This document shows positions 1,557-4,931 of a stretch of 50,129 bases of DNA, piece by piece (the first letter of the stretch is position 1; every line of letters begins with the position of its first letter). A model generated the notes under the pieces. It was not told the origin of the DNA, searched no databases, and saw only the letters and a list, made by a program, of their open reading frames with translations. The stretch spans positions 1 to 50,129 of the forward strand of contig JAFYIE010000017.1 of NCBI GenBank assembly GCA_017538795.1. The letters are read 5' to 3'. The DNA is from Bacteroidales bacterium. Its GTDB lineage: Bacteria; Bacteroidota; Bacteroidia; Bacteroidales; F082. The position numbers were made by a program, and so were the translations under genes.

Positions 1557-2357
1557 ATGAAAAAGATAGTTTTTTTATCAATGATTTTGGCTGTTTTGGT
1601 CACAAGTTGCAAAAAAGATGACAGCAAAACAACCACCTTAAATTACAAAGATTCAGATCCTATCAAAATGGTGTTTCAAGACACTCACAAAATAAAAGTC
1701 AGTTCTGATTATGATATCACCTATGAAATATTAAATACCGACACTATTCCTGTGGTGAGATTTGAAAGTAAAGGTGTCTTAAAGGCATTAAACATGGGAA
1801 CTGATAAGGTTAGAATCAGCAATGGATACGAGACCAAAACAGTTGATGTTGTAGTTGACCTTTTCACAGAGCCTCCTTTCGAATTTGGATGCGGTCCAAG
1901 CAGAATAAAAGAACTTTTTGGAGAGCCAATTTATTCTGCCACCACTCCTGACAACAGCTATCTATACTACGAATATATAGGCACCGATCCGGCAACAAAC
2001 TATATGTATTCGCCTACATGCTACCACATGGATTTCTACTTCAAAGATTGCGCGAATTATGAACAAGCCGAGCTTTACATCAGAAAGGCTAATATAGTAT
2101 TTTCTTTAAACAAATATTTAAGAAATAACTTCGATTTCCTGTTCCAATACCCGAACTTCTATTACGATTCCATAATAACTCACGACTCGGTTCCAGCTGA
2201 CATATACCAGAACAAACTGAATCCTAGTATTGTTTGCTTCAAATACGAGCATGCAAATCAGCACGACGACTATGGCTTGGTGTACAGGGAATTGGACATC
2301 GACTCTCTCGCTAATTCTTTGAAAACACGTCCGCGCTCTTCAAAATTCTTATATTGA
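1557..2357 (+). CDS. Surface-type lipoprotein of unknown function
   Basis: A 266-residue protein with a lipoprotein signal: basic start, hydrophobic core and lipobox LVTSC with Cys18. The residues after the Cys are KKDDS, close to the lysine-plus-two-acidics signal that exports lipoproteins to the cell surface in Bacteroidota, so surface display is likely (inference). The mature part is rich in Tyr, Asp and Phe and has several Cys (GCGPS, SPTCYH, KDCAN), but I recognise no catalytic motif or named family. Residues about 70-90 loosely resemble a bacterial Ig-like segment. The gene stands alone behind its own promoter. Its last 29 codons lie antisense to the 3' end of murD. It is a plausible real gene because of the promoter, signal and lipobox; the function is unknown. 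Confidence 0.75.
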   Translation: MKKIVFLSMILAVLVTSCKKDDSKTTTLNYKDSDPIKMVFQDTHKIKVSSDYDITYEILNTDTIPVVRFESKGVLKALNMGTDKVRISNGYETKTVDVVVDLFTEPPFEFGCGPSRIKELFGEPIYSATTPDNSYLYYEYIGTDPATNYMYSPTCYHMDFYFKDCANYEQAELYIRKANIVFSLNKYLRNNFDFLFQYPNFYYDSIITHDSVPADIYQNKLNPSIVCFKYEHANQHDDYGLVYRELDIDSLANSLKTRPRSSKFLY

Positions 2358-3574
2358 TCGTAGCTCGCAGCGGCAGGCGAAAGCAGGCATATATCGCCGT
2401 TTTTCGATAAACTCTTAATAATTTCAAAGGCTTCGTTGAGGTCTTTGAAATTTTTTATATCCCCTTGATAACCGGCTCTTTGAAGCATATCAAACATACG
2501 TGCGCCAGCCTTGCCGGTGTACAGAATATGCTCAACAGGATTATTCATCAGATATTCAATCAACGGAGAATAGTCGATTTCACGGTCAAACCCGCCAAGA
2601 AGCAGGAACTTCACTCCTTTTATTGTCTGCAAAGCCGCTATCGTGGCCTGCGGAATGGTCGAGATGCTGTCGTTATAGAACGTCACCCCGCCGAATGTGC
2701 CGACGAACTCTTGCCTGTGCTCCAACGGCTGGAACGTGTATAGATGAGGCAACACCTCATCGACAGGGATGCCGAAAGCGTAAATGGCACACAACGCAGC
2801 CTTGACATTCAAGCGGTTATGGTCACCATGCAGTGGTACATCATCCCAATTCACACCGAAATCGTAATACTGATAATTGAGCGAATGAACCATCATCTTA
2901 TCCGCCTCATAACAGAACTCGTCGTTGGTGACAGCCCAGTCTTTCTCGCCCATCTTCCTGATAATGTTCAACTTAGCGTTGCGATAAGCCTCAAAAGTGC
3001 CGAAATGATCGAGGTGCTCCTCAAAGACATTCAGCAAAATCCCGATGTGGGGACTGCGATGGATAAACTGCAGCTGATGCGCCGAAAGCTCGAAAACGAT
3101 TATCGTCTTATTGTTGATTTTCTCGATGACATCGAATATCGGAATGCCAATATTTCCAGCTAAAATAGCGTCTCTTCCCGACTCCTTCAGGAGATGATAA
3201 ATCAACGTCGAAGTCGTGCTTTTGCCCTTCGTTCCGGTAATGCCAATGATTTGGCTGTGAAACTCCTCGAGAAACAAATCGGTTTGCGAAGTGATTTTTG
3301 AGAAATCTACACTCTTGTCTTTCAATGAGATACCCGGCGTTTTCAACACGATATCATAATCTTTTACAGCATCGAAGTAATTGTCGCCGAAATATAATTT
3401 AGCATCAGTTTTCAGATCCTTAAAAGCGGCTTCGTTTTTGTCAGCGACACCGACCACGGCATGAGGCAGGAACTTTTGGATGAACGCCAACGACGACTTC
3501 CCCTCGCGCCCGAAGCCGAGGATGAGGATGCGCTTGCCACGAAGACGTTTGAATATGGTGTTCATGCTAACCAT
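2270..3574 (-). CDS. murD: UDP-N-acetylmuramoyl-L-alanine--glutamate ligase, MurD2-type (partner of MurL)
   Basis: A cytoplasmic Mur ligase of 434 residues. A Rossmann-like N-terminus (ILILGFGREGKSS) is followed by the ATP loop GITGTKGKSTTS at about 111-122, the central FELSAHQLQ and NVFEEHLDHFGTFEAYRNAK segments, HNRLNVKAALCAI, NDSISTIPQATIAAL and a C-terminal SPAAASYDQYKNFEERGRVF typical of MurD. Its start overlaps the MurL stop by 8 bases (ATGGTTAG); an in-frame ATG three codons later is an alternative start. Because it is coupled to MurL, I infer that it adds L-glutamate rather than D-glutamate to UDP-MurNAc-L-Ala, as MurD2 does in Xanthomonas. The sequence alone cannot prove the stereochemistry. 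Whether a second, classical murD or a murI exists lies outside the window. Confidence 0.85.
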   Translation of the reverse strand: MVSMNTIFKRLRGKRILILGFGREGKSSLAFIQKFLPHAVVGVADKNEAAFKDLKTDAKLYFGDNYFDAVKDYDIVLKTPGISLKDKSVDFSKITSQTDLFLEEFHSQIIGITGTKGKSTTSTLIYHLLKESGRDAILAGNIGIPIFDVIEKINNKTIIVFELSAHQLQFIHRSPHIGILLNVFEEHLDHFGTFEAYRNAKLNIIRKMGEKDWAVTNDEFCYEADKMMVHSLNYQYYDFGVNWDDVPLHGDHNRLNVKAALCAIYAFGIPVDEVLPHLYTFQPLEHRQEFVGTFGGVTFYNDSISTIPQATIAALQTIKGVKFLLLGGFDREIDYSPLIEYLMNNPVEHILYTGKAGARMFDMLQRAGYQGDIKNFKDLNEAFEIIKSLSKNGDICLLSPAAASYDQYKNFEERGRVFKELARESMSNSLYTKP

Positions 3575-4931
3575 TTAAGCCCTCCTTCAGTATGTTTTCA
3601 AACAGTTTCGGAAGATTGTTTCCATCGTCGAACTGCGCCACGTAATCCTCAACGGTCATGTCATCGGTTTTCGCCACACCGTTAAGGATGGTATCTTTCA
3701 GATTATCATCGGTTTGCAAAATCTTGTTGACGCAGGCTCTCACCTCGCCCACCGTCCCGACGCATTCAAACGGCTTCACGTCCACAGAACCGTCCAACTG
3801 GTCTAAAATAGGGCGTAAACTATTGTCGCTCAATAGGTCTTTGCCGAATATTTCAGTAAGTTCTTTTCTTGAAACGAACGGCGACAACGCCAACCATGTG
3901 AACAAACATTTCGGACATTTGCCGCACCACGAATCGGTCTTCGAACCAGCGTTACAGCTCTTGAACACTGGCCTATACTCCTTCGAGCGGCTAAACAACT
4001 TGGCTATCTGCAGCTCGTTCAGCGGGCGTAAGAAACTGAAATATTGAATGTCAACATTGATATATTTCTCGACATAATGACGGAAATCGTTTTCAAACGC
4101 CACCGACTTGCTGTACTGGTGGTTAATCTCGGTGTCAGGCACCGTTGGTTCGTTGGCCGACGACTCATTCGACAGCGCTATGTACTTCGATTTCGTCGCG
4201 AAACCAAGCAAAACAGTATAAAATGCCAGCATCGCCGAAAACGGAGTGTGCCCGTTGAGGTATCCCTCCGCATTCATCTTCAGCATCGTCGGGTCGAGTG
4301 TGCGCTTGATTATTGCCGTTTGCTCTTCAGTGTAACCTGCCGCCGCCACGCATTCGTTTGTAGCTCCTCGAGGATTGATAATCAACGGGATAGCAGGCAC
4401 ACGATTCTTCAGCATTTCCAGAGTCACAACCGAATCCTTGCCGCCGCCAACAGGAATGAGAGTCTGCTCGTGTAAAATACCGTCATTTCGACCGACCGCA
4501 GGGAGCGGAGAAATCTCCGTCTCGATATGCATAAACTCATCAATACTCGTCTCAATCCCATTGACATAAAAAAACTCCCCTAATCCATTGAAATACAACT
4601 TCTTCCACCAACGAATCTGTTCCTCGTCAAGCGAAAATGGTTTGATAATAACTGTTTTTGGACAAGCGATTTTCCAATAGCTGACAAGCTCAATCATCCC
4701 GATGTGGAAAATCAGGTTTTCAAGCAACGGCTTCGGTATCTCGTTCCAGTGATAAAATGGTCGTGCCGGAATCCGAAAACAAGGATGGAACTCAATTTTT
4801 TCATCATCGGATGAGATAAAAAAGTCAAATTTTGCAGAAAACTCGCCATTTTCCACGGAATAATTGTAACCTTGGAAGCAGAAAAATTCAAATTTTTCTC
4901 TCAGAGAATCATATTTCGCTTGATTTGACAT
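3567..4931 (-). CDS. murL: UDP-MurNAc-L-alanyl-L-glutamate epimerase (MurL)
   Basis: A 454-residue cytoplasmic protein with a PP-loop-like IPVGGGKDSVV at about 159-169, a conserved NESSANEPTVPDTEINHQYS at about 255-274 and a Cys cluster WCGKCPKC at about 335-342. This layout matches my knowledge of the MurL family, which uses ATP to epimerise the terminal L-Glu of UDP-MurNAc-L-Ala-L-Glu to D-Glu. It is transcribed ahead of murD with an 8-base overlap, exactly the expected partner. The start ATG at 4931 follows a TAATTTTG promoter box by about 20 bases. Older annotations may call such proteins ATP pyrophosphatase-like or hypothetical. A tRNA-thiolation enzyme is the main alternative, but the gene pair argues against it. 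Confidence 0.85.
   Translation of the reverse strand: MSNQAKYDSLREKFEFFCFQGYNYSVENGEFSAKFDFFISSDDEKIEFHPCFRIPARPFYHWNEIPKPLLENLIFHIGMIELVSYWKIACPKTVIIKPFSLDEEQIRWWKKLYFNGLGEFFYVNGIETSIDEFMHIETEISPLPAVGRNDGILHEQTLIPVGGGKDSVVTLEMLKNRVPAIPLIINPRGATNECVAAAGYTEEQTAIIKRTLDPTMLKMNAEGYLNGHTPFSAMLAFYTVLLGFATKSKYIALSNESSANEPTVPDTEINHQYSKSVAFENDFRHYVEKYINVDIQYFSFLRPLNELQIAKLFSRSKEYRPVFKSCNAGSKTDSWCGKCPKCLFTWLALSPFVSRKELTEIFGKDLLSDNSLRPILDQLDGSVDVKPFECVGTVGEVRACVNKILQTDDNLKDTILNGVAKTDDMTVEDYVAQFDDGNNLPKLFENILKEGLNG

Follow-up and report, generated by a model that had tools for sequence, protein, structure and literature searches.

The supply of D-glutamate (D-Glu) by MurI and its addition to the peptidoglycan precursor by MurD are regarded as nearly universal, and the alternative path through MurL was said in 2021 to be confined to relatively few genera, a review of that year placing it in Gamma- and Alphaproteobacteria and Actinobacteria (PMC8788868). 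PMC5808125 likewise names Gammaproteobacteria, Actinobacteria and Alphaproteobacteria, together with orthologues of low similarity from a fungus, from cyanobacteria and from an amoeba. According to the 2021 review, MurD2 of Xanthomonas oryzae has E197 and R358 in the places of D182 and K348 of Escherichia coli MurD, the exchange E197D/R358K switches it to D-Glu, and the mutation K319T makes L-Glu acceptable to the E. coli enzyme; X. oryzae P433 and F435, which correspond to E. coli A414 and L416, do not set chirality, the mutants having stayed stereospecific (PMC8788868). The word 'Bacteroid' is absent from that review, and a literature search covering titles and abstract openings, without bioRxiv and with few subscription papers, returned neither a MurL route in Bacteroidales nor a stand-alone MurD domain 3. 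Here we describe a murL-murD2 pair from an uncultured, gut-type Bacteroidales bacterium, found in a stretch of 50,129 nucleotides (contig JAFYIE010000017.1 of assembly GCA_017538795.1, hereafter the window), and judging from sequence comparison and a predicted structure we are confident that this pair supplies the D-Glu of peptidoglycan by the MurD2/MurL route. By this route L-glutamate would be joined to the wall precursor by MurD2 and probably be flipped to the D-form only afterwards by MurL, presumably by way of adenylation, and the pair would be the organism's only source of wall D-Glu.

Both genes lie on the minus strand, as do all their motifs given below. The gene murL (3567..4931), recognised by its open reading frame (ORF), profile match and QueC/QatC-like predicted fold, encodes a MurL-type epimerase of 454 aa that matches NF041275, the MurL of Xanthomonadales, with an E value of 2.1e-77 over profile positions 5-406 of 447. 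Its PP-loop GGGKDS (residues 162-167; 4431..4448) and its four-cysteine motif C(x)9CxxCxxC (residues 326-342; 3906..3956) are kept in 60 of 60 aligned MurL sequences. The MurD-family ligase encoded by murD2 (2270..3574; 434 aa) scores 324.2 bits against TIGR01087, over the cut-off of 211.95. The first-pass annotation had read the locus as a MurL-type epimerase overlapping a MurD by 8 bases and had singled out GGGKDS and WCGKCPKC in the former and GTKGKST in the latter; this holds throughout, the ORFs 4931..3567 and 3574..2270 sharing the murL stop and murD2 start at 3567..3574.

At the positions reported to govern chirality the window's MurD is of the MurD2 type. E186, within EEHLDH (3005..3022), corresponds to E. 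coli D182 and X. oryzae E197, R331, within GGFDRE (2579..2596), to E. coli K348 and X. oryzae R358, and I304, within NDSIST (2657..2674), to E. coli K319 (excerpts of PMC8788868), and K116 of the ATP loop GTKGKST (residues 114-120; 3215..3235) takes the place of E. coli N113. The same exchanges recur in an alignment of 30 MurD2 sequences, with N113K in 30 of 30, K319I and K348R in all 29 rows with a residue there, and D182E in 28 of 29, Pseudobutyrivibrio xylanivorans being the exception. The MurD proteins of the dcw cluster that are not of the short type described below have N113, D182, K319 and K348 throughout (54 rows, 51-54 aligning), and K319 and K348 are found in 92 of 92 full-length dcw rows. 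A single 100* branch moreover separates MurD2 (72 rows) from dcw MurD (92 rows), in a FastTree tree that carries a long-branch warning on the E. coli outgroup.

The window is one contig (C65) of an assembly of 2.48 Mb in 122 contigs, in which searches for murI and for a second murD, proposed as checks by the first-pass annotation, were both carried out. Neither MurI (TIGR00067) nor the Asp/Glu-racemase family PF01177 gave a match, the latter search being made in this genome alone. The single Aminotran_4 (class IV aminotransferase) match is IlvE_II over cut-off, and no D-amino-acid transaminase was detected. Only one protein, the window's MurD, passes the TIGR01087 cut-off, and it is the sole complete MurD found in the genome. 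The dcw cluster on contig C56 reads mraZ, rsmH, ftsI, murE, mraY, a 180-aa ORF, ftsW, murG, murC, ftsQ, ftsA and ftsZ, where murE, murC, ftsW (below its TIGR02614 cut-off) and the 180-aa ORF were named by profile and the rest by inspection. The 180-aa ORF occupies the place of murD between mraY and ftsW, and its only NCBIfam match is to TIGR01087 at positions 279-419, that is, to MurD domain 3. The absence of MurI and of a second full MurD, together with the MurD2-type residues, supports the proposal that this organism builds its wall by the MurL-MurD2 path. It should also be mentioned that the window's genome contains, on contigs C27, C24 and C30, two ORFs resembling MurF and a longer, MurF/alanine-racemase-like one (by inspection), of which the 6.6% contamination of the assembly may be the source.

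The suggestion that the route might be typical of the lineage turned out to be true, and more widely so than had been guessed. In a survey of 247 genomes spread evenly over the order Bacteroidales, MurL was matched in 86 and MurI in 166, 148 of them over cut-off; MurL and MurI over cut-off never occurred together, and 13 genomes had neither. Two of the 86 MurL matches are fragments, one at a contig edge (G052) and one a relic (G075:C54:16980-17183) with two stops; the genome with the relic has only a weak MurI-family match, and neither MurL nor MurI is matched in G179, a member of the same family. On a tree of dcw proteins the presence of MurL requires five changes, counting as positive the short-murD genome G242, which has no MurL match; 43 of the 47 MurL-negative rows fall on one branch (98*), and 43 of the 47 have MurI over cut-off. 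From these profile matches the MurL route appears to replace MurI in roughly one third of the genomes sampled. A D-amino-acid transaminase as hidden source of D-Glu was considered and rejected, since TIGR01121 at E 1e-40 matched ten of the 247 genomes and was over cut-off in two only, both MurL-negative (G072, G176); three MurL-positive genomes (G046, G156, G177) gave matches below cut-off.

The coupling of the two genes is equally widespread. A MurD lies directly downstream of MurL in 29 of the 30 best loci and in 45 of 55 further ones, with GTKGKS in 42 of these 45 frames, and as one genome (G120) is common to both sets, MurD2 adjoins MurL in 74 of 84 genomes, which indicates that the pairing is more than chance. 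In three genomes (G107, G183, G079) the two are fused in a single frame, and nine of the ten MurL genomes without an adjoining MurD2 have a full MurD2-like frame elsewhere. Among the named loci, the best 80 of 578 relatives, MurD2 is found within 3 kb of MurL in 75. Their titles read Bacteroidales, Bacteroidia, Bacteroidetes or Bacteroidota, apart from one Lentimicrobiaceae, one Candidatus Colimorpha, one 'uncultured bacterium' and Pseudobutyrivibrio xylanivorans DSM 14809, and many indicate rumen, gut or lake samples. The last of these, a Lachnospiraceae type strain, has an overlapping MurL-MurD2 pair (L235, 2983-5668) with a MurL 47% identical to that of the window, and in its genome even the best MurI match (E 6e-6) stays below cut-off; our guess is that the pair arrived there by horizontal transfer.

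The case for the MurD2/MurL route rests on the gene coupling, the lack of any detected MurI-type or D-amino-acid-transaminase gene, the MurD2-type residues, the QueC/QatC-type fold predicted for MurL with its PP-loop and CxxCxxC motifs, and the lack of a complete canonical MurD. Several observations weigh against it. The window's MurL scores 260.5 bits, far under the NF041275 cut-off of 700, and is not filed in that model. Of the four X. oryzae substitutions the window's MurD shares just two (E197, R358), and where E. coli has A414 and L416 it carries A and Y instead of P and F, although P433 and F435 are not counted as defining MurD2, since they are reported not to set chirality (excerpts of PMC8788868). 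One MurL-bearing genome (G054) yielded no MurD2. The window's genome is furthermore a metagenome-assembled genome (MAG) of 93.5% completeness with 6.6% contamination; gaps in the MAG are however unlikely to explain the absent MurI, since two cleaner genus mates (G101, G201; 99% complete) also lack a MurI match, and they too have MurL and a short dcw murD. Weak MurI-family matches (E 1.5e-5 to 6.6e-13) occur in 15 MurL-positive genomes, and 45 MurL-positive genomes retain a full-length dcw MurD with the canonical K319 and K348; in these no MurI passes its cut-off, and a D-amino-acid transaminase is matched in just three, below cut-off. The weak matches and the retained MurD would fit an arrangement in which an unrecognised racemase or salvage of D-Glu feeds the wall and MurL-MurD2 serves elsewhere, for example in a side pathway. 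Such an arrangement seems very improbable, given that MurL and MurI over cut-off never coincide, that 32 MurL-positive genomes are without a full canonical murD in the dcw cluster, and that no complete MurD besides MurD2 was found in the window's genome. The MurD2/MurL route nonetheless leaves the role of the full-length dcw MurD in the 45 genomes unexplained; that these proteins are pseudoenzymes was rejected because the checked sites are canonical, and salvage of D-Glu from outside is no more than our guess for the MurL-positive genomes with an intact dcw MurD.

The reduction of the canonical dcw murD to a stand-alone domain-3 ORF is not peculiar to the window's genome. In the 86 MurL-positive genomes the dcw murD is short in 32, full-length in 45 (including the genome with the MurL relic), located at a contig edge in three, where the frame extends upstream of the cut point, and without a match in six, whereas it is full-length in 47 of 47 MurL-negative genomes placed in the tree. 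Among the matches listed for a search with the 180-aa ORF were 24 short frames (179-234 aa) and three truncated at contig edges, every one from a MurL-positive genome, and eight further short ones came from another search. In G242 (68% complete), of the same family as the MurL-positive G034, the dcw murD is a 265-aa ORF lacking the N-terminal domains. Where both neighbours are present, and with the ATG nearest full-length residue 266 taken as start, the short ORF measures 176-185 aa in 31 of 31 cases, and 29 of these begin 1-94 bases past the mraY stop, the remaining two at 274 (G200) and 246 bases (G218). On a quick LG+G4 tree of MraY, MurE, MurG and FtsW (125 rows, 11 of them under half filled) the short and full-length states change 14 times, 11 of these changes being forced by starred, that is, well-supported branches, and the 72 better-filled rows give 12 changes, nine forced. 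A single origin of the truncation was rejected, holding the 23 short rows together giving a p-AU of 2.3e-51 (72 rows, quick tree). Both states furthermore occur within nine family codes (f4, f6, f13, f27, f35, f50, f74, f95, f120), although the full-length member of f120 (G246) is MurL-negative and the f13 member G012 starts at a contig edge.

The residues kept by the orphan domain were compared between 33 short rows (including the last 186 residues of the G242 ORF) and 92 full-length ones. H267, N268 and N271 are mostly lost and the glutamate-binding lysine K348 is K in only 7 of 33, K319 being K in 17 and R302 being kept in 25 and replaced by K in 7, whereas D317 is retained in 32 of 33, H301 and E304 in 29 each, and W341, I342, V363 and F429 in all. 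The ratio of nonsynonymous to synonymous substitution (dN/dS; Nei-Gojobori, one pair from the window's genus) is 0.124 for the orphan, 0.062 for murL and 0.067 for murD2; the other short pairs tried have synonymous sites near or past saturation. Together with the kept residues this points to purifying selection on the domain, looser than on its neighbours. We tentatively suggest that MurD carries in its C-terminal domain a second function outside catalysis, such as docking within the wall machinery encoded by the dcw cluster. In those Bacteroidales lineages where glutamate addition passed to MurD2/MurL, the two N-terminal domains would then have disappeared repeatedly and independently, domain 3 staying behind as a separate protein, and such a job may further lie behind the repeated and uniform reduction.

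The dN/dS of the orphan exceeds that of its dcw neighbours murE, mraY, ftsW, murG and murC (0.047-0.097). This faster evolution counts against such a role and would also suit a decaying murD relic without function, as would the retention of K348 in a few short rows and the six MurL-positive genomes without a dcw murD match. A mere relic is nevertheless somewhat doubtful, as the identical piece was retained after many separate reductions, D317, H301, E304, W341, I342 and F429 are nearly invariant and dN/dS is well under 1. It is conceivable from the alignments, but improbable, that translation of full-length murD also begins internally at Met266 to give a domain-3 product, and that this product alone is kept by the short genes: 43 of 45 MurL-positive and 37 of 47 MurL-negative full-length genes have Met266, and the short ORFs begin there, but since Met167 and Met283 are equally conserved Met266 may be structural, and the idea was dropped for want of specific support. 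If domain 3 does have a second role, canonical Mur ligases elsewhere may carry the same hidden role. The repeated carving-out of domain 3 makes a non-catalytic role of a Mur ligase testable. Furthermore, since the MurL route is found in about a third of the sampled order and in a Lachnospiraceae type strain, the range of organisms that an inhibitor of MurI or of MurL would hit is altered.

Around the pair, a GH3/beta-lactamase-family fusion (7934-5055) and a thioredoxin-like protein are encoded upstream of murL on the same strand. The fusion is matched in the flank of 17 of the 80 named loci (L162-L210), mostly those nearest the window, and a link to wall recycling is possible. Beyond murD2, a lipoprotein-like ORF on the plus strand (1557-2357) overlaps its 3' end tail to tail by 88 bases, and locus L162 has a comparable overlap of 64 bases.

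As for known systems, MurL was said in 2021 to have no known conserved domains (excerpts of PMC8788868), and the available part of PMC2922099 does not mention it. A phmmer search for a solved MurL structure gave one meaningless match (E 0.64), and at E 0.001 MurL did not match the QueC family PF06508, giving only DUF6395, under cut-off. Its predicted model (mean predicted local distance difference test, pLDDT, 92.8) however has the QueC/QatC fold with both QueC hallmark motifs, the structural match standing well above the other rows, which speaks for likeness in working and not for membership. With the PP-loop enzymes QueC, QatC and Cap9 MurL has in common the predicted fold, the GGxDS loop and the four-cysteine CxxCxxC site, and ATP-driven carboxylate activation is proposed as the shared chemistry; fold and motifs suit carboxylate adenylation, and the predicted likeness offers MurL a testable mechanism. 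It differs from QueC in its C(x)9 rather than C(x)8 spacing and its lack of a PF06508 match, and its substrate would be a nucleotide peptide instead of CDG. Canonical E. coli MurD shares with the window's MurD2 the Mur ligase family and the equivalents of N138, E157, H183 and K198, the two differing by N113K, D182E, K319I and K348R. A close likeness exists also to MurD2/MurL of X. oryzae (XOO_1320/XOO_1319), with which the window's system shares adjoining genes, the lack of a detected MurI, the residues E and R at both positions that switch chirality and full-length profile homology of MurL (excerpts of PMC8788868), and from which it differs in its Bacteroidales host and in A and Y at the places of P433 and F435, the Bacteroidales systems being further set apart by MurL-MurD2 fusions and, in many genomes, by a dcw murD cut to domain 3.
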